Source of the DNA: a bacterium
Lineage (GTDB): Bacteria; Bacteroidota; Ignavibacteria; Kapaibacteriales; UBA2268
Direction of reading: 5' to 3'
Assembly (NCBI GenBank): GCA_024711295.1
Contig: JANJTB010000035.1
Span: 1-64,000, forward strand
DNA length: 64,000 bases
This document shows, piece by piece, positions 1 through 10,719 of this stretch. The notes below the pieces were generated by a model, which worked only from the letters and a program-made list of their open reading frames with translations, ran no database searches and was not told the origin of the DNA. The position numbers and the translations under genes were made by a program. Within the stretch, counting starts at the first letter, position 1; each line of letters opens with the position of its first letter.

Positions 1-1276
1 TGCTTTTGCTCAAACAGAAGAACTACCCGACACTGTCTGGACTAAGTTTACTTATCCTAATGCTGTAAATGCTGTAAAATTTACACCTGACGGTAAATAT
101 CTTGCCTCTGGTGGCGACGACGGAATACCCAAACTTTGGGACGCAGAAACCGGGGAATTGGTAAGAGAATTTCTTGGAAACGGAAGCAAAATTTGGTCAC
201 TTGATATTAATAATACCGGTGAATTAATTGCTGTGGTTAATGATTCTTCAGTTATTACTATTTGGAATGTGGTATCTGGTGAAATTTTAAAAGTAATTGA
301 CTATTATGGAAATAGCAATAAACTGAGAGGGCTTGATTTGAAGTTTTCTCATAATGGGATATATTTAGCTGCAATACTTGCAAAATACGGACTAAATTCT
401 ATTGAAAGAGATATCATTCTATGGAATACGCATAATTGGGAAATGAAATCTCAATTAATGGACGTTGCTGTACCAATTTCATTAATGTTTTCACCTGATG
501 ACTCAAAGATTGCTGTTTCTGATATTGTTTTAGGTGAAGAAAAAATAGTTGTTGCGATTTTGAATGTTCCAAGTTTATCCCATATTACTTACTCTAGTGA
601 ATCTAAAAATGCCATTATAGATTTAGCTTTTTCCCCAAACAACGAATACCTCGCAGGTGCAATCGAAGGAGGTCCCATCAAAATCTGGAATACTTCCGAC
701 TGGAAATTGTTTAGAGAGTTCGGTGGGAATGGTTATTCTGTTGCTTTCTCACCTGACAGCAAATATGTTGTAACAGGAAGAACAATATGGGGTAATGATT
801 GGTCAAGACTATTCATTTATGATAATGAAACAGGTTTTGAAACATATTCTTACTTACTAAATTACTTTAGCAGTAGATTAGGTCATCAATATGGTGATTT
901 AGCAAGAACAATCTCTGTTAGCGATAATTCCAATATTATTGCAATAGGTGGTTCAGGTGGAATTTACATGCTCAACGCCAAATGGAATCCGACATCAGTA
1001 CAGGACAATCCGGTACAAATAATTGAGCCGATTGTTTTTCCAAACCCGACAAACAGCAAAGCAAATATCAGATTTGACTTGCTAAATTCAGCAACAATTA
1101 ATATTCAGATTTATGATATTAATTCTCGGTTAATAGCTCATATTTTTGATGGTTTTCTTGAATCAGGAAACCACAATTTTGAGTGGAACACTGCAAAATC
1201 ACCTTCGGGCTCTTACTTTGCACGAATTACTGCTAACGGTACAGTTTCAACAGTACAAATAATCGTAAATAAGTGA
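1..1276 (+). CDS. WD40-like beta-propeller protein with T9SS sorting domain (5' partial)
   Basis: The reading frame is open from base 2, so the gene starts upstream of the window. Alignment with the paralogue at 2082 places base 2 at about residue 20, in the signal-peptide tail (AFAQTEELPD). An internal TTG at 158 is not the true start. The visible 424 residues contain WD40-like blades with motifs such as FTPDGKYLASGG, KIWNTSDW and AFSPDSKYVVTG, then a C-terminal T9SS type A domain (FPNPTNS, IQIYDINSR, SGSYFARI). Family knowledge says such proteins are exported and attached at the cell surface; the specific ligand is unknown. The first ~50 visible residues and last ~220 closely match the downstream paralogue, while the middle is different. 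The propeller call is motif-based. Confidence is high for the architecture and low for function. Confidence 0.85.
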   Translation, partial: AFAQTEELPDTVWTKFTYPNAVNAVKFTPDGKYLASGGDDGIPKLWDAETGELVREFLGNGSKIWSLDINNTGELIAVVNDSSVITIWNVVSGEILKVIDYYGNSNKLRGLDLKFSHNGIYLAAILAKYGLNSIERDIILWNTHNWEMKSQLMDVAVPISLMFSPDDSKIAVSDIVLGEEKIVVAILNVPSLSHITYSSESKNAIIDLAFSPNNEYLAGAIEGGPIKIWNTSDWKLFREFGGNGYSVAFSPDSKYVVTGRTIWGNDWSRLFIYDNETGFETYSYLLNYFSSRLGHQYGDLARTISVSDNSNIIAIGGSGGIYMLNAKWNPTSVQDNPVQIIEPIVFPNPTNSKANIRFDLLNSATINIQIYDINSRLIAHIFDGFLESGNHNFEWNTAKSPSGSYFARITANGTVSTVQIIVNK

Positions 1277-1282
1277 GGTGGA

Positions 1283-1327
1283 CAATGAAAATGGTAATTT
1301 TTGGGTGGCTGATTTATGAATGAAATA
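1283..1327 (+). pseudogene. Possible remnant of a duplicated gene start
   Basis: Just after the stop of the first WD40 gene the DNA reads gtgaggtggacaatgaaaat, nearly identical to the sequence after the second copy, where it forms the Shine-Dalgarno and start of the 3365 gene. Here the frame beginning at the ATG at 1286 stops after about 12 codons. This suggests the duplicated unit extended into the downstream gene and that copy was later lost. The inference rests on a short match. Confidence 0.4.
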
Positions 1328-1370
1328 TATAAATATTATTAACGTTTTTACAAATTAAGGAGATAAAATA

Positions 1371-1574
1371 ATGATTAATACTATAAATGCAATATACAAA
1401 AATGGGCGAATAATTTTCGATTCAGACATAGCAATACCTGATGAAACCAAGGTATTTGTCAGTTACTTTGAAAATGGAAATGATGATTTTTATTTAAACA
1501 GTTCCGAATATTCTCTGGATAAAATCTGGGCAAACGAAGAAGACGATATTTATGAAGAATTACTCAAAAAATGA
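1371..1574 (+). CDS. DUF104/AF2212-like antitoxin
   Basis: This 67-residue protein starts with the pattern INAIYKNGRIIF followed by IPDETKVFVSYF, which resembles short DUF104-type antitoxins (NG.I.. then LP.GT.V.V). Its acidic C-terminal half (WANEEDDIYEELLKK) would fit the toxin-binding, flexible part of a type II antitoxin. A good Shine-Dalgarno (aaggag, 1357-1362) sits upstream of the ATG. The last 23 bases overlap the following MazF/PemK-like gene, an arrangement typical of co-translated toxin-antitoxin pairs. The protein would neutralise the neighbouring endoribonuclease, and by analogy the complex would repress its own promoter. No operator was recognised. The family is assigned from the N-terminal pattern only. 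Confidence 0.7.
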   Translation: MINTINAIYKNGRIIFDSDIAIPDETKVFVSYFENGNDDFYLNSSEYSLDKIWANEEDDIYEELLKK

Positions 1575-1881
1575 AATTGTATTAATTAAATATCCATTTA
1601 GTGACTTAAGTAATTTTAAAGTCAGACCTGCAGTAGTGGCAAATAACGACTTTCCATCTTACGACTTGATTATAATACCATTAACAAGTAAAATTACCAA
1701 TCTTCATCCAGGTGAATTTTTAATAATTGATTATGCAAAATCCGGTCTGAACGTACAAACGGCAGTAAAACGTGGGTTATATACAATTGACAAACGGCTT
1801 GTAGTGCAATCAATAGGGTTTCTTGGAGATTCAGACTCCACCAAACTAACTCAGTCCATCTGCTACTGGTTAGGTCTTTAA
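1552..1881 (+). CDS. Type II toxin, PemK/MazF-family endoribonuclease
   Basis: The 109-residue product opens with EIVLIKYPFSDLSNFKVRPAVV, which matches the MazF/PemK hallmark (GDIV.v.fPF.d....K.RP.lvl) with the conserved Arg-Pro. The later IIPLTSKI segment and the KRGLYTIDKRLV stretch fit the second half of the SH3-like fold. These proteins cleave mRNA at short sequences and are inhibited by their antitoxin. The start ATG lies inside the antitoxin gene (23-bp overlap) with a purine-rich gaagaaga about 8 bases upstream, so translation is probably coupled. Length is normal for the family (about 110 residues). The module lies between two WD40 paralogues in an accessory stretch, consistent with acquisition or stabilisation of that region. 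Confidence 0.85.
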   Translation: MKNYSKNEIVLIKYPFSDLSNFKVRPAVVANNDFPSYDLIIIPLTSKITNLHPGEFLIIDYAKSGLNVQTAVKRGLYTIDKRLVVQSIGFLGDSDSTKLTQSICYWLGL

Positions 1882-2031
1882 CTGTTTTTTTGCCGTATTT
1901 GGAAATATTTATTATTGTATAAATAGTATTTTTTACATTTAGCCATTGTTAAATTCACCTCAATGAGGAGAATTATTAAATACAAATAATTTTTGTGATA
2001 TTGTCCACTTTAATGTGTTAATCTAATAGAT

Positions 2032-2039
2032 TATATTTG
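2032..2039 (+). promoter_or_regulatory. Candidate -7 box of the second WD40 gene
   Basis: TATATTTG matches the Bacteroidota -7 consensus TAnnTTTG and lies 42 bases before the ATG at 2082. Nineteen bases upstream there is TTTA rather than TTTG, so the -33 element is imperfect. Confidence 0.4.
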
Positions 2040-2081
2040 CAATTATAAAAAAACTTTTTTTATGAAAATTGAAAAAATTAT

Positions 2082-3356
2082 ATGAAACACAAAATGTTTT
2101 TAACGGCGGCGGCTTTGGTGCTGCTATTTGTTCAATCTGCTTTTGCTCAAACAGAAGAACTGCCAGATACTGTCTGGACTAAGTTCACTTATCCAAATGC
2201 TGTAAATGCAGTAAAATTTACACCTGACGGAAGGTATCTTGCTTCTGGTGGCGACGACGGAATACCCAAACTTTGGGATGTAGAAACTGGTGAACTTGTT
2301 TATGAATTTCCGATATTACCTGATATAATTGAAGATATTGATATATCAAATCGATATATTGCGTTCACTTCACGAAGTGAAAACGGAATTAATGTATATG
2401 ATTTGAATACGAAGGAACTATTAGTAGTTTTAAAAGGGAGTTCAAATGTAGCATTTTCATCTGACGAAAATTATCTTGTTACCGCTACTCATCATACGAC
2501 TGGTTTTTCCGGTTTAAGTATTTACAATACAGATAATTGGCATATATTAAAATCAATAGAATTTGATAAAACATCTTTTGATATAAAAGTATCTCAAGAC
2601 AATAATTATATCGTTAGATCAGGTAATTGGGGTGATCCTTCAACAGAAAATAAAGAAGGTACAATAGAATTATATAGCATACCCGAGCTAAGTTATATAA
2701 GGACAATAGATAAAAAAGAATACCTAGTATGTAATGATTTAGCATTTTCTAATTCAAATGAACATCTTGGAGGTGCTCTCGAATCCTCCCCCAACAAAAT
2801 CTGGAATACTTCCGACTGGAAACTGTTTAAAGAGTTCGGTGGGAATGGTTATTCAGTTGCTTTCTCACCTGACAGCAAATATGTTGTAACTGGTGAGGGA
2901 ACATGGGGTAATAGACATATCTTTATAAGAAATGCTCAAACTGGTGATTTAATATATACTTATCCAAGATCAAATGTACCAAATTCAATTGATGTATCTC
3001 CAGACAACAGATTCATCGCTGCTTCTTTAATGACAAGTGGAATTATTGTTTACAACGCAAAATGGAATCCGACATCAGTACAGGAAAATCCGGTGCAAAT
3101 TATTGAGCCCCTTGTTTTTCCAAACCCGACAAACAGCACAGCAAATATAAGATTTGACCTGCTTAATTCAGCAACAATTAATATTCAGATTTATGATATT
3201 AATTCCCGTTTAATAGCTCATATATTTGATGGTTTTCTTGAATCAGGAAACCACAATTTTGAGTGGAACACAGCACAAGCACCATCCGGCTCCTACTTTG
3301 CACGAATTACTGCAAACGGCATAGTTTCTTCAATTCAAATAATCGTAAATAAGTGA
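2082..3356 (+). CDS. WD40-like beta-propeller protein with T9SS sorting domain
   Basis: The complete 424-residue paralogue of the gene at 1-1276. It has a Sec signal peptide (residues 1-22, ending SAFAQ), WD40-like blades (FTPDGRYLASGG, AFSPDSKYVVTG, SPDNRFIAAS) and a C-terminal T9SS type A domain of about 75 residues (VFPNPTNSTANIRF, IQIYDINSRLIA, SGSYFARIT). The protein is expected to cross the inner membrane by Sec and the outer membrane by T9SS, and the propeller suggests a binding scaffold. Identity with copy 1 is very high for the first ~50 and last ~75 residues plus one propeller segment (about 230-275), but the rest differs. The stop TGA lies in the gtgaggtgg that serves as ribosome binding site of the next gene, so the two are probably co-transcribed. 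Confidence 0.9.
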   Translation: MKHKMFLTAAALVLLFVQSAFAQTEELPDTVWTKFTYPNAVNAVKFTPDGRYLASGGDDGIPKLWDVETGELVYEFPILPDIIEDIDISNRYIAFTSRSENGINVYDLNTKELLVVLKGSSNVAFSSDENYLVTATHHTTGFSGLSIYNTDNWHILKSIEFDKTSFDIKVSQDNNYIVRSGNWGDPSTENKEGTIELYSIPELSYIRTIDKKEYLVCNDLAFSNSNEHLGGALESSPNKIWNTSDWKLFKEFGGNGYSVAFSPDSKYVVTGEGTWGNRHIFIRNAQTGDLIYTYPRSNVPNSIDVSPDNRFIAASLMTSGIIVYNAKWNPTSVQENPVQIIEPLVFPNPTNSTANIRFDLLNSATINIQIYDINSRLIAHIFDGFLESGNHNFEWNTAQAPSGSYFARITANGIVSSIQIIVNK

Positions 3357-3364
3357 GGTGGAAA

Positions 3365-4870
3365 ATGAAAACGCTATTAATATCAGTAATTCTTTTCGTT
3401 TCGTTTGTCGCTTGTTTATTTTCGCAGAATGTAGAGCCGGAAGCAATGTATTTTTCGATACCACGCTCAAGTGGAACCAATATTCAGCAATTTGATATAA
3501 ACGACCCTGAATACATAATGAATAAATTCACACTTACATGGCAGTGGAATAATTCACCAAAACTGACAAGAGCATTGAAAATGAATTGCTCTCAGGGGCA
3601 TGAGCCAAGTTCAGGCGCTAAATATTTAGACAGTAATGATACCGGAAAGGAAATTGAATATATTTGGCAGGTAACTTCTATGAGTCCGCACCCACTTTAT
3701 CATTCAAAATCTTTTACTTACAAGCCGACGTTTACAGTTGACCCAGCTCATTTTTCGCCAAATGCAAACGATGCTGAGAAGAACATCTGGGGCTTCAAAA
3801 ACAGAAATATAACTAATCCTATTATTGTGAATAACCGTCTCCGGCTTTCACGTCTTACTCAGTACACTAATCCTGTACTTACAAATCCCTGGAGAAGTGA
3901 TAATTTTTATAAAGTTTATGATGATGACAAAGATAAGGACAATAATGACTTAAAACCAGTCAACGGCAAATACTGGCGAGTATCAGTCAATCTGCGTAGA
4001 GCAAGTTTTGCTTCAATGAATGATACATCAGATAATGCACCTGTATTGTCAATTGTAATTCCCTACTACCTTAATTTGAGCGATAGTGCCAGAAAAATCA
4101 AATTCAGTTCAAAACCAAATCCAAGTATCAGAACAGAAATGACTTATACCTATTCAGTTGGAGCCAACAATTATCAGGTAAGCCGTGGTTATGAACTTGG
4201 CACAGAAGCAACTACTGCCGACAGTATAATCATAACCAGAAGTATGATTCCTAATTCTTCTGATACATCAGTAACCGGACCTGACATTACAATCAACTTC
4301 GATTTTATTACAGATGGGGATGATAATCAAAATCCTGTCTTTTGGGGTGATATTAAAGATTCAACCGACACAACCAAAATACGCTCAATAGGACTTAATG
4401 TTTATTATCACAAAACTTGCGATATAGATCTGAACTATATCCGTATCGGTAACCCAATGAGCCACAAGCTATGGAAAGGCGAGTATGACTCTTTATTCCA
4501 TAGCAAAATCCAGACAGGAATAAATATAATAAAGAACAAAGGTTATAAACTTGTCAGATTCTACGGTCGTGACGAAATATCTGATCATTATGAGCTATGG
4601 GATGCAATGCGCTATTTCAACAAACTGGTCGGCGGTTTGGCAATAACAGAAGGTAATAGTCAGGATGAGAGGTATTTATATAGGACAGGCACGGACAGAA
4701 ATTGGCGGGGCAGCATACCATCAGGATCAACTTCAGCACCACATATTTATTTATATTGTGATCCCGGCTGGATTCGAACCAGCGGCACCAAGTTTAGGAA
4801 ACTTGTGCTCTATCCTACTGAGCTACGGGACCATCATTTTTCAATTAATAGTATCATTACCCAAAAGTAA
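3365..4870 (+). CDS. Secreted protein of unknown function, 3' end fused into antisense tRNA
   Basis: The start is the ATG at 3365, because a strong Shine-Dalgarno (gaggtgg, 3355-3361) precedes it; the upstream GTG at 3353 overlaps the previous gene. Residues 1-21 are a signal peptide (LLISVILFVSFVACLFSQ); a lipobox is possible but weak. The body is Asn/Ser/Asp-rich with no recognised domain. It contains a probable beta-rich section (INFDFITDGDDNQNP) and the segment RFYGRDEISDHYELWDAMRYF. The last ~40 residues (from about DPGWIRTSG) are read through the antisense strand of the tRNA-Arg gene at 4759-4832 and into the 3' end of smg, so the natural C-terminus is missing. No T9SS domain remains, although neighbouring proteins have one. 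The gene is best viewed as 3'-truncated. Confidence 0.6.
   Translation: MKTLLISVILFVSFVACLFSQNVEPEAMYFSIPRSSGTNIQQFDINDPEYIMNKFTLTWQWNNSPKLTRALKMNCSQGHEPSSGAKYLDSNDTGKEIEYIWQVTSMSPHPLYHSKSFTYKPTFTVDPAHFSPNANDAEKNIWGFKNRNITNPIIVNNRLRLSRLTQYTNPVLTNPWRSDNFYKVYDDDKDKDNNDLKPVNGKYWRVSVNLRRASFASMNDTSDNAPVLSIVIPYYLNLSDSARKIKFSSKPNPSIRTEMTYTYSVGANNYQVSRGYELGTEATTADSIIITRSMIPNSSDTSVTGPDITINFDFITDGDDNQNPVFWGDIKDSTDTTKIRSIGLNVYYHKTCDIDLNYIRIGNPMSHKLWKGEYDSLFHSKIQTGINIIKNKGYKLVRFYGRDEISDHYELWDAMRYFNKLVGGLAITEGNSQDERYLYRTGTDRNWRGSIPSGSTSAPHIYLYCDPGWIRTSGTKFRKLVLYPTELRDHHFSINSIITQK
4759..4832 (-). tRNA. tRNA-Arg (anticodon CCU)
   Basis: On the minus strand a full cloverleaf can be folded. The acceptor is GGTCCCG/CGGGATC (one G-U pair), the D-arm is GCTC/GAGC, the anticodon stem is CAAGT/ACTTG with loop TTCCTAA giving anticodon CCT, and the T-arm is GCTGG-TTCGAAT-CCAGC with discriminator A. 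CCA is not encoded. The gene starts 8 bases after the stop of smg on the same strand, so it may be co-transcribed with ybeY-smg. Its 3' end faces the accessory region at 1-4758, the usual geometry for tRNA-targeted integration. Confidence 0.95.
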
Positions 4871-5299
4871 AGTCCGTCCAGGTTTGTTCGAAAAATTCAT
4901 AGACTCAAGATGCAAAGCCGCTAAATAACTTCTTAAAAATTGAGTATCAACCGTGAACATTCCTGAATAATGAAGACGTTCCAATAACATATCAAGTTGA
5001 TAAGGTGTTATCAATCCTAAATATGCAAATTGTTGCAATTCTTTTAAAGCTTCAGGAGTGAACAAATCCTTTTCTATATTATGAAGTAACCTGAAACCTC
5101 TTTTTGAATCTTTTAGCTGAACAAGTTTTTCGAGTAATGCCAAATCTACTTTCTCAAATAACCAACTAAATGCAGTAGAAATCTCACTTTTGGTATAACC
5201 TTGATTTTCTAACTCTCTAAATTTATAATCCTGTAAATTCTTTGTATCGTCGTTGTTGTTTATCAGGAATACAATTATTTCCATTATTCTTTCAATCAT
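4841..5299 (-). CDS. smg: Smg/DUF494 family protein
   Basis: The 152-residue protein has the DUF494/Smg layout. The N-terminus is IERIMEIIVFLINN, a helical segment LENQGYTKSEISTAFSWLFE matches the family pattern (L...Gf...ei..al.WL), and RGFRLLHNIEKDLFTPEALKEL corresponds to the conserved R.f...E...L.......l stretch. The C-terminal half is more divergent. Smg is linked by gene neighbourhood in other bacteria to dprA and peptide deformylase; its biochemical role is not established. Here it overlaps the end of ybeY by 4 bases (ATGA), so the two are translationally coupled, and the tRNA-Arg gene follows immediately. The family call is from sequence pattern and size. Confidence 0.75.
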   Translation of the reverse strand: MIERIMEIIVFLINNNDDTKNLQDYKFRELENQGYTKSEISTAFSWLFEKVDLALLEKLVQLKDSKRGFRLLHNIEKDLFTPEALKELQQFAYLGLITPYQLDMLLERLHYSGMFTVDTQFLRSYLAALHLESMNFSNKPGRTLLLGNDTIN

Positions 5300-7632: not shown

Positions 7633-10600
7633 TTATTTTAATATTAAAAATGCCTTATGATGTGATTCAGAGCCATTGATTATTCTAATAATATAGACAC
7701 CAGAGCTAAATTTTGATACATCAATATTAATATTTCCCGATACTAGATTAGTATCGAATAAACAAACACCCCTTGTATCGTAAATGGCAATTTTTGATGA
7801 ATTCTCTTTAATATAATTATCAAAACCTACAGAGATAGTTTCATTCGCTGGAGTAGGGAATACAGTTATTTCTCCGAGTTGATGAGCATTTTCATCAATA
7901 CTGCTTATCTTATAGTTGTATAAGTCAGACATGAAACTTTTGCATGAATTTTCAGTTACCTGCACTGTATAATTACCTTCTACATCCTTGGTATCATAGT
8001 TCTTAGCTCTTGCCCCGGGGATAATATTCCCTTCAAAATACCATTGATTACCGGAAGAGGCACTGGAAATCAATACTCTGTTGTCTCTTGAAATTGTGGG
8101 TTGGGGTGGTAGTTCTGTTATATCAGTTTCAAAGTAAATTTGTTTGATAAAATCATCATCAGAAGAATACTCAAGATATAGGTTGCCTTTGCCTGGATTC
8201 TCCCATTTTACCTGTATCAGTTGAGTATTATTTGAACCAATGATTTTACCACCGGAAATACTCCATTTAAATTTACCTACATTTAACAATGAATTATAAA
8301 ATTGTTCATCAAATTGACAAACCTGGCTGACACCTTCTATTTCATTTGAAACATCCTCTTTTGTTTTTACAACTAATGATGCTGTTTCATTACAATTATC
8401 ATTTCTGAAATTCAACTCAATTTTGTTGTCGCCTACTGAATTAAAAGAAACAAATAAAGTATCTGAGTCATCAGCTCCAATTATAACTCCACCGGTCACT
8501 GACCACTTTTTGACTAACTTGTTATCAGTAACATAATACTTATATGTATTATTCGCAAAAACCTTATCAAAACCGGTTACATTTAATTGAGGGAAATCAT
8601 AAATTGAAATGTTTAATGTATCACTGAAAATTCTTGGCACTGTTGATTCAACAAACAGGAAATAATCATCACCGGATTGCATAATTCTTGGAAACTGAAT
8701 ATTTATATTATTAGCTAATGAACTTGTAATTTCACCAATCGTCATCGGAAATGTTTGCTGCCCGGGATTTCTTTTTCCCAACCTAACCCTGAATATATTC
8801 TCACCCAGAAAATTTCCATTTGATATTGAATATTTAAAATTCATTTTTGTACCTGGGCAAATTGCAGTATCAGCCAGCGGGGTTAAAGTTAGTTTAGGGG
8901 GGAGAGGAACGCTTGAATAAAAGAACCTGTAAATAGTGTCATTTCCACTTGCATCAACTACTCTTATGTAAGCTAATGCGTCTTCCTTAATATTAATTGG
9001 CCTTAGTTCAACGCTTACTTGGTTATCAACACCTGGAACAATTTCATCATTGAATAAATAATAATTATATGATGAATCTTTAACCAAATGGATCATTGCC
9101 AAATTTGACCTAATCTTTGAACTGGTTATTGGTTCGTCATTAATTATCCCGGAATAATTACCATTTCCTGTTAGCGAAAATGTTGCACTTGGCGGATAAA
9201 TATCCTCAGGTTTTTCATGATTTTTGAATGGCAAGTAGGCTGCAGAAGAATAAGTATCGTTAAAGTTTTCAAAGCCATATACTGAGCCGGCAATAGGTCT
9301 GTTTGACTCGACTATGTATCTACCATGTCTGGATAACTTTAGGTTAAGGTAGTAATATCTAAAACCTTCGGGTTCAGTAACCGGAAAAGGAATAGGGTTA
9401 TTTAAAGCTATATCTTTTACTTTTTTAATTTCAGATTTGCCGTCAATTATCTCTGTTAATAATAATTCTTCAGGGATTTGTCCGGCATCATTTAGTCTGA
9501 AAACCAGATTAAGATAATTATCTGTAAAGTATTGATTTGATGAAGTTGCCGGCAAATTAAACACTAATTTAGTGGCAAAGTTATCACCCGAAATAACCTG
9601 AGCTTTAAATGGTACACTCTTGTCAGACAAACTCTCGTTGCCTGTGTTAAACTGTACAACATTTATTCTTTTATCTGAGGATATGATTGCCGGCTTATTA
9701 TCTGTATTAACTCTAAAACTAAGGAAACCCTTTCCTTCAGCTCCATAAGGAAACTGAATGATACCTTTGTTCGCGTTATTCAATTTAACTTGTGTGTCAT
9801 TCTCATAAGCACTGACTTTAACCCAAGAACCGGTTGTTCTACCGTAAACAGGAGTAATATAATACCTTTTCGAAAAACTGCTGATTGGCATTTCCTGTTC
9901 AATTAAATGTTCACATGGGCTTAAATTTGTTGGTACTTGAGCACAATAATTCCCTGTAAATACAGCTATTGGTTTTGTTGACCTTATTGTACTACCTGAC
10001 AGGTCATTATTATTTCCTAAACCGCTCAATACCCAAACATCACCTTTTGTAAGCGTTCTGCTTACTGACGCATCAGTTTTTAGTGAATCATTATTTGCAA
10101 GTTTAACTTGAGTGCTGGTGTTACCACCTAGTTTAAAAGTTACGCGAGTGTTGTCGTAAGCACTTACAATTACTGCAGTTGATGGAGCATAATTGTTAGT
10201 GTTGTTTGAATAGTCATTAAATGTGGTTATGTTGTAAGAAGGTCCAAGGAAGTTTAAAGGAAGAGCTAAAAAACCCTCTGTGTATGTCCTTAATCTTACG
10301 ACAACATAAATAATTACCGGGGAGTCAGAAGTAACAAAGAGAGCTTTATTTTCATAAACATTCTCATTTGGTGTTTTGACATTTGGTGTTTTATTATAAG
10401 GCATCAAAAATTTAGCATGGATATCATGCTCGATTACTTTATTGGGAGTAACATCAACATTTGCATTATAAAATGATGCTTCAACCTTGAAGTTCACCTT
10501 GGCAGATGTGGATGATGAAATATAAAATTTAACTTGATTATAATCATCTAAAGCATTATAATACGCCGGTACAAAGCTGATGATAAAATTAGTGCCTGCA

Positions 10601-10719
10601 TTAGAAGGTGAGTTTAATTCAACAAGTTGTTCAGGATTAATTTGGGAGTTTAAATTATTATAAGAAACTAACAAAATTATAAATCCTGAAAGAATTAAAA
10701 ATTGTAAATATTTCATCAT
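7633..10719 (-). CDS. Giant secreted protein with IgGFc-binding-type domain, Ig/PKD-like modules and T9SS sorting domain
   Basis: The 1028-residue product has a signal peptide (YLQFLILSGFIILLVSY). Residues ~115-500 resemble the IgGFc-binding N-terminal domain family (PF17517-like): blocks such as ALFVTSDSPVIIYV, TAVIVSAYDNTRVTF, PIAVFTGNYCAQVP, CEHLIEQEMPISSFSKRYYI and GRTTGSWVKVSAYENDTQV. Several Ig/PKD-like modules follow (VTDNKLVKKWSVTGGVIIG; GKFKWSISGGKIIGSN). The last ~80 residues are a T9SS type A domain (VFPTPANETISVGF, IAIYDTRGVCLF, SGVYIIRI, KAFLIL). It is expected at the cell surface as an adhesin-like protein; the domain name does not prove immunoglobulin binding. The MATE gene begins within its last codons, suggesting co-transcription. 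Confidence 0.85.
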   Translation of the reverse strand: MMKYLQFLILSGFIILLVSYNNLNSQINPEQLVELNSPSNAGTNFIISFVPAYYNALDDYNQVKFYISSSTSAKVNFKVEASFYNANVDVTPNKVIEHDIHAKFLMPYNKTPNVKTPNENVYENKALFVTSDSPVIIYVVVRLRTYTEGFLALPLNFLGPSYNITTFNDYSNNTNNYAPSTAVIVSAYDNTRVTFKLGGNTSTQVKLANNDSLKTDASVSRTLTKGDVWVLSGLGNNNDLSGSTIRSTKPIAVFTGNYCAQVPTNLSPCEHLIEQEMPISSFSKRYYITPVYGRTTGSWVKVSAYENDTQVKLNNANKGIIQFPYGAEGKGFLSFRVNTDNKPAIISSDKRINVVQFNTGNESLSDKSVPFKAQVISGDNFATKLVFNLPATSSNQYFTDNYLNLVFRLNDAGQIPEELLLTEIIDGKSEIKKVKDIALNNPIPFPVTEPEGFRYYYLNLKLSRHGRYIVESNRPIAGSVYGFENFNDTYSSAAYLPFKNHEKPEDIYPPSATFSLTGNGNYSGIINDEPITSSKIRSNLAMIHLVKDSSYNYYLFNDEIVPGVDNQVSVELRPINIKEDALAYIRVVDASGNDTIYRFFYSSVPLPPKLTLTPLADTAICPGTKMNFKYSISNGNFLGENIFRVRLGKRNPGQQTFPMTIGEITSSLANNINIQFPRIMQSGDDYFLFVESTVPRIFSDTLNISIYDFPQLNVTGFDKVFANNTYKYYVTDNKLVKKWSVTGGVIIGADDSDTLFVSFNSVGDNKIELNFRNDNCNETASLVVKTKEDVSNEIEGVSQVCQFDEQFYNSLLNVGKFKWSISGGKIIGSNNTQLIQVKWENPGKGNLYLEYSSDDDFIKQIYFETDITELPPQPTISRDNRVLISSASSGNQWYFEGNIIPGARAKNYDTKDVEGNYTVQVTENSCKSFMSDLYNYKISSIDENAHQLGEITVFPTPANETISVGFDNYIKENSSKIAIYDTRGVCLFDTNLVSGNINIDVSKFSSGVYIIRIINGSESHHKAFLILK

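Follow-up and report, generated by a model that had tools for sequence, protein, structure and literature searches.

Orphan Rhs/CDI arrays contain incomplete copies of large surface genes that lie near full ones, and in these arrays the 3' ends are displaced. Riemerella anatipestifer is, like the bacterium analysed here, a member of the Bacteroidota. The 10K genomic island of this species uses an Arg-tRNA as attB and carries a tyrosine integrase adjoining the tRNA, and excerpts of the report (PMC6764341) describe 53-base perfect direct repeats as well as tests of integration and excision. Islands that tyrosine integrases have placed in tRNA genes are the more general subject of Islander (PMC4383910, in extract). 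Mosaic surface proteins of Porphyromonas gingivalis have been reported to be diversified by domain rearrangement and exchange (PMC5266723, in extract). The locus described here lies at the left end of a stretch of 64,000 nucleotides (the window), whose position 1 is also the first base of contig C9 (length 71,656 bases); the genome (G000) comprises 3.45 Mb in 40 contigs. Its junction is of a known kind, and what is less usual is the presence of several cut copies of one gene pair beside different tRNA genes in one genome. As in the islands of the Islander extract (PMC4383910), the 3' end of a tRNA marks the start of accessory DNA, a tyrosine integrase and a short tRNA-end repeat are present, and relatives carry other cargo; here, however, the repeat holds only 9 tRNA bases and the integrase is on another contig. 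The Islander method, as far as that extract goes, rejects repeats in opposite orientation, whereas the second copy here is inverted if two contigs abut and is otherwise unplaced. The Arg-tRNA site and the tyrosine integrase are common to the Riemerella 10K island, but the 53-base repeats and the excision and integration tests in the excerpts of PMC6764341 have no counterpart here. Unlike the P. gingivalis mosaics in the extract of PMC5266723, the proteins concerned are a WD40 protein and a giant partner, and the partner copies are truncated at their 3' ends.

An open reading frame at 3353/3365-4870 (forward strand) is confirmed in the window by the open reading frame listing. Its first 460 codons (3365-4744) are the start of the gene for a giant T9SS-type secreted protein, here labelled gene2, of which the larger 3' part is absent. 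Aligned with a long frame (1,631 aa) in a relative (G002), these codons show about 60% identity; the G002 frame is open at its contig start and lacks its own start. Judged from sequence comparison, the window copy is the first quarter to third of gene2. The alignment ends at residue 460 (positions 4742-4744), and the 41 codons that follow (461-501) are therefore regarded as readthrough. This tail (4745-4870, forward strand) lies outside the gene2 alignment and consists of an att-like flank, the antisense of tRNA-Arg(CCU), a spacer and the antisense of the smg end. The frame spans the entire tRNA antisense and the last smg codons, and what keeps it open is solely the absence of a stop from the antisense strand of the tRNA and the smg end. 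The tRNA-Arg(CCU) gene (anticodon cct) was placed by ARAGORN at 4758-4832 on the minus strand, with its 3' end towards the accessory side, and an smg-like DUF494 gene (4841-5299, minus strand; Pfam DUF494, E 8e-9) lies on the core side. Thus the initial annotation, which had described a truncated secreted gene whose last ~40 codons are antisense to the tRNA and the 3' end of smg, and a tRNA 3' end that faces the accessory region, is borne out by the end of homology and by the tRNA strand. A full-length gene ending at the tRNA was also considered and was ruled out, as homologues extend further. The 3365 frame has zero Pfam matches and no T9SS tail. In particular, Por_Secre_tail, the C-terminal domain taken as the criterion for a T9SS type A sorted protein, is absent from its product, whereas both WD40 genes upstream carry this tail (Pfam), in agreement with the earlier remark that the gene lacks a T9SS domain of its neighbours. 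The truncated product is presumably not a functional T9SS protein. The predicted fold of the fragment has a mean pLDDT of 36, and a PDB sequence search with it gave two matches only (E 0.33 and 0.38). The analysis of the junction explains a misleading chimeric reading frame that automatic annotation might retain as a gene. Further into the core side, the window encodes a 1,028-aa IgGFc_binding protein with a T9SS tail (7633-10719).

A 25-base att-like sequence (4742-4766) covers the junction; 16 of its bases lie beyond the tRNA 3' end, and only the other 9 are tRNA sequence. The start of the motif is the breakpoint, and its first three bases are common to the last homologous codon. At up to 3 mismatches the motif occurs at two places in the 3.45-Mb genome (reversed control, 0), which is more than chance would give. 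The sole other place, G000:C11:205654-205678, is 188 bases ahead of the first ATG of the gene for a tyrosine integrase (413 aa) with Phage_integrase, Phage_int_SAM_5 (SAM_5) and Arm-DNA-bind_5 domains, all three above curated cut-offs. Behind the integrase come a protein of 253 aa, another that resembles HTH_17 (marginally above the cut-off) and, at the contig end, a WD40-type start. Three ATGTTCA words lie between the C11 motif and the integrase; any such word occurred three times in 14 of 2000 simulated sequences, a test picked after the words had been seen. Contig C11 also encodes a type IIG-like Eco57I restriction-modification protein that contains a Y1_Tnp (IS200-like transposase) match (L051 5844-9584). 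A 104-aa frame stands just before this gene, in the same frame and behind a single stop codon, and an interruption of the gene is therefore possible.

Because the window opens at the first base of C9, the DNA upstream of the window is another contig. C9 starts 19 codons inside a WD40 gene, and the right end of C11 covers a WD40-type start up to its seventh base, together with the region upstream of it. The 47-base upstream stretch at the C11 end is found in full length only on C8 (47/47) and C26 (96%); C20 and C15 have 19 bases of it as well. Among the 68 of 80 contig ends examined, no match was found for the left end of C9, the last 31 bases of C11 matched only the shared upstream stretch inside C8, and several ends overlapped by about 140 bases, whereas C11 and C9 would join without overlap. 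Contig ends, rather than reads, suggest that C11 probably continues into C9 with about 50 bases absent between them. If so, the element would measure about 8.6 kb and its two motif copies would be inverted. The initial annotation had called for a direct repeat of the tRNA end and an integrase upstream; a 25-base repeat and the C11 integrase are indeed present, but the repeat is inverted rather than direct if C11 and C9 abut.

The same site has been compared in relatives, as had also been proposed. The flank behind tRNA-Arg(CCU) was read in 17 relatives (G002 and 16 further loci; most over about 1.5 kb, one under 300 bases), a set that excludes loci L036 and L041, where no tRNA-Arg(CCU) was obtained. 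In all 17 the DNA behind the tRNA differs from that of the window, the first 80 or so bases being different in every one, and none has the same junction with a full-length homologue ending there, the case that would have spoken against truncation. Accessory DNA from the tRNA 3' end and other DNA at that place in relatives, which together form one of the criteria for a tRNA island, are thus both found. Homologues of the C11 integrase start less than 200 bases behind tRNA-Arg(CCU) in two of the 17 (G013 and G011). The same three integrase domains are present in the G013 homologue, in a G002 homologue and in one of two G011 integrases. The G011 site carries two integrases, a D5_N/BT4734-like protein and cas genes with type I-B best models. 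For these cas genes behind the integrases (G011:C102, L169), the best PADLOC models are Cas6b, Cas8b, Cas7b, Cas5b, Cas3b and Cas4b. Further proteins that look secreted by eye occupy the G013 site, an EcoRV endonuclease and a D12 methylase the G002 site, and what we take to be aroC lies behind tRNA-Arg in G001. An smg-like protein (likeness by eye) precedes tRNA-Arg in G001, G002, G011 and G013. A long gene2 of G002 faces another integrase of the C11-integrase family. The 24 kb behind the G011 tRNA yielded no far copy of the tRNA end, and the stretches of G002, G013, G006 and G012 showed no direct repeats of the tRNA end of note. From the integrase homologues behind the same tRNA and the differing cargo in relatives, smg-tRNA-Arg is best read as a candidate integration hot spot, which would place such a site in a little-studied Bacteroidota family.

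The gene pair cut at this site is found repeatedly. Matches to gene2 occur in 17 of the 40 genomes searched, its own included; among the 55 matches listed, 29 are in open frames of 1,052-1,963 aa and the others are shorter. A search with an alignment of gene2 starts against three genomes gave 10 matches in G000, 4 in G001 and 6 in G002, some of them weak. G000 has two long paralogues, on C39 (1,318 aa) and C35 (1,697 aa, start missing at the contig end). Both end in Por_Secre_tail and have no other Pfam match; in NCBIfam one is just below the curated cut-off. An orphan 3' part of gene2 was not found in the genome, where only the C35 and C39 paralogues matched, with best stretches of 34-36% identity. 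In this respect the family differs from Rhs/CDI arrays, as 5' ends are retained here and no orphan gene2-type 3' part was found. Copies of gene2 are also cut at other tRNA genes: about 96 bases lie between the end of the C26 copy (77% identity) and tRNA-Glu(TTC), and the C13 copy stops beside tRNA-Gln(CTG), with a hairpin-like stretch retained beside the tRNA at both junctions (by eye). Other fragments stop ahead of a ParDE pair (C15) and of another WD40 unit (C39), and cut copies in relatives also adjoin other genes. Counting matches at E <=1e-6 with a 3' end inside a contig, 3 of 6 gene2 3' ends in G000 (C9, C26 and C13) lie no more than about 100 bases from the 3' end of a tRNA. Of the other three, one is on C15 and two are stubs (C39 and C13) that may represent one place. 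In G001 and G002 together, 0 of 6 fragment ends adjoin a tRNA in the stretches read, and one of these stretches stops at a contig end. These are raw counts, and they leave out two weak G000 matches (E 0.005), the window's own stub (1277), fragments that run off a contig, and the long copies. In G002, the start of one array lies about 620 bases behind tRNA-Lys.

In 339 kb of the 3.45-Mb G000 genome, no att pair like the Arg motif was found for the Glu and Gln junctions. Within that scan, 29 bases of the tRNA-Glu block are repeated on C38, at the 3' end of tRNA-Lys. The two tRNAs share this terminator-like flank, and the similarity is lost about 14 bases before the gene2 edge is reached; for the tRNA-Gln block, no match longer than 17 bases was obtained. 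The 3' flank common to tRNA-Lys (G000:C38, L213 2090-2260) and tRNA-Glu (L052 6510-6640) includes the hairpin and continues beyond it, for about 80 bases with gaps. Spread by phage or plasmid was rejected, as a search of viral contigs, by a method that detects close relatives only and with gene2 left out of the phage-collection search, found no relative, and plasmids gave no match.

Upstream of the 3365 frame the window holds two WD40-repeat T9SS genes, both on the forward strand. WD40 no. 1 (1-1276) lacks its first 19 codons at the contig end and is followed by a stub of a gene2 start (1277-1323), whose likeness to the C26 copy stops at 1291. WD40 no. 2 (2082-3356; WD40 and Por_Secre_tail) is the gene2 partner. 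Between them lie a PemK/MazF-like toxin gene (1552-1881, forward strand; PemK_toxin, E 4e-7) and a possible antitoxin frame (1371-1574, forward strand) for which no family was found. In two arrays, toxin-antitoxin-type genes separate a truncated gene2 from the WD40 gene that follows: the PemK genes (window 1371-1881) and a ParDE pair (L063 4283-4832). WD40 no. 1 is a mosaic with no. 2 and the C26 copy, and much of it most closely resembles the C26 copy. Compared in 30-codon steps, the WD40 copies switch between highly similar blocks (about 90% identity or higher, up to 98%) and blocks of about 34-66%. The gene2 fragments of C9 and C26 have a dN/dS of 0.25 and are almost identical in their first 70 codons. 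These patterns point to likely sequence exchange between gene copies. A repeated gene pair with mosaic copies and one-sided truncations may be a means of varying the cell surface.

From the motif, the integrase and the relatives, it is probable, if well short of certain, that window 1-4741 is accessory DNA at a tyrosine-recombinase attachment site and that its edge truncates gene2. In this Bacteroidota family, tyrosine-recombinase elements would then attach at the tRNA-Arg(CCU) 3' end beside smg, and the DNA of window 1-4741 would be an element, or a remnant of one, brought to that site with the PemK toxin gene and copies of the surface-protein gene pair as cargo. The edge of this DNA would cut gene2 after codon 460, and the C11 integrase or a close relative may have made the junction. 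The att pair gives rise to a directly testable prediction. Several observations count against an integrase origin. First, the motif copies are inverted if C11 joins C9, whereas attL and attR should be direct. Second, gene2 is truncated at tRNA-Glu and tRNA-Gln without a comparable att pair found in the DNA scanned, and also away from tRNAs. Further points are that just 9 motif bases belong to the tRNA, that no far copy of the tRNA end lies in the 24 kb examined in G011, and that the C11-C9 adjacency is drawn from contig ends. The first of these observations has a place in a different reading, in which the integrase would turn over the roughly 8.6 kb that lies between two 25-base sites in inverted order, so that either the integrase or gene2 adjoins the tRNA. 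The flipped form would have the integrase behind tRNA-Arg, as in G011 and G013, but only one orientation was assembled and the C11-C9 adjacency is itself a deduction; an invertible segment is accordingly considered rather improbable. The second observation bears on an edge left by deletion or rearrangement. Tandem WD40-gene2 arrays would decay by deletion and unequal crossing-over, the junction would have halted before a needed tRNA gene, and the integrase would be incidental. Truncated gene2 copies are common (at tRNA-Glu, tRNA-Gln, the ParDE pair, a WD40 unit and other genes in relatives), and both WD40 and gene2 copies are mosaics. This account is unlikely, though the strongest of the alternatives, and leaves unexplained a 25-base motif at the breakpoint whose sole second place is at an integrase with homologues at the same tRNA. 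Since gene2 is also cut elsewhere without a comparable att pair found, integrase action is a better explanation for the tRNA-Arg junction than for the truncations as a whole. The motif suits an integrase event, while the gene family also undergoes one-sided loss in tandem copies. The integrase-type geometry proposed in the initial annotation is accordingly supported in part for tRNA-Arg, by the att-like repeat, the integrase at its second copy and the same-tRNA integrases of two relatives, and it accounts less well for the Glu, Gln and non-tRNA cuts.

It is doubtful that the short gene is itself functional or serves as a donor cassette for gene conversion among surface-protein copies. The dN/dS of the C9-C26 pair, its nearly identical first 70 codons and the recurrence of fragments in relatives would suit such a role, but most of the C9-C26 divergence may predate truncation, the T9SS tail is missing, and fragment lengths range from stubs to 460 codons. 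Least probable by far is an assembly chimera: contigs do end at repeats and the window starts at a contig end, but the junction is 4.7 kb inside the contig, and the tRNA-Glu and tRNA-Gln junctions show the same pattern on other contigs. Beyond integration at tRNA-Arg, a wider and quite speculative proposal is that the WD40-T9SS/giant-T9SS pair forms a dispersed, recombining surface repertoire carried on small tyrosine-recombinase elements that enter tRNA 3' ends. The giant partner would repeatedly lose its 3' end while its 5' end and the WD40 partner are retained, the cut copies would be partners in mosaic exchange, and the tRNA-Arg integrase might also flip a segment between inverted att copies.

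Some minor observations concern other copies of the pair. On C8 (G000:C8, L157 1-1795) a WD40-T9SS-type gene starts 437 bases behind tRNA-Ser(GCT) and runs off the contig end. A short palindromic stretch just before the WD40 genes is common to C26 (L052 3840-3875) and C8 (L157 1290-1330). In addition, the same gene2 stub, with a WD40 start behind it, is found at two contig ends, on C13 (L062 12131-12319) and C39 (L064 2-220), and this repeat branches, leading into different WD40-gene2 units.
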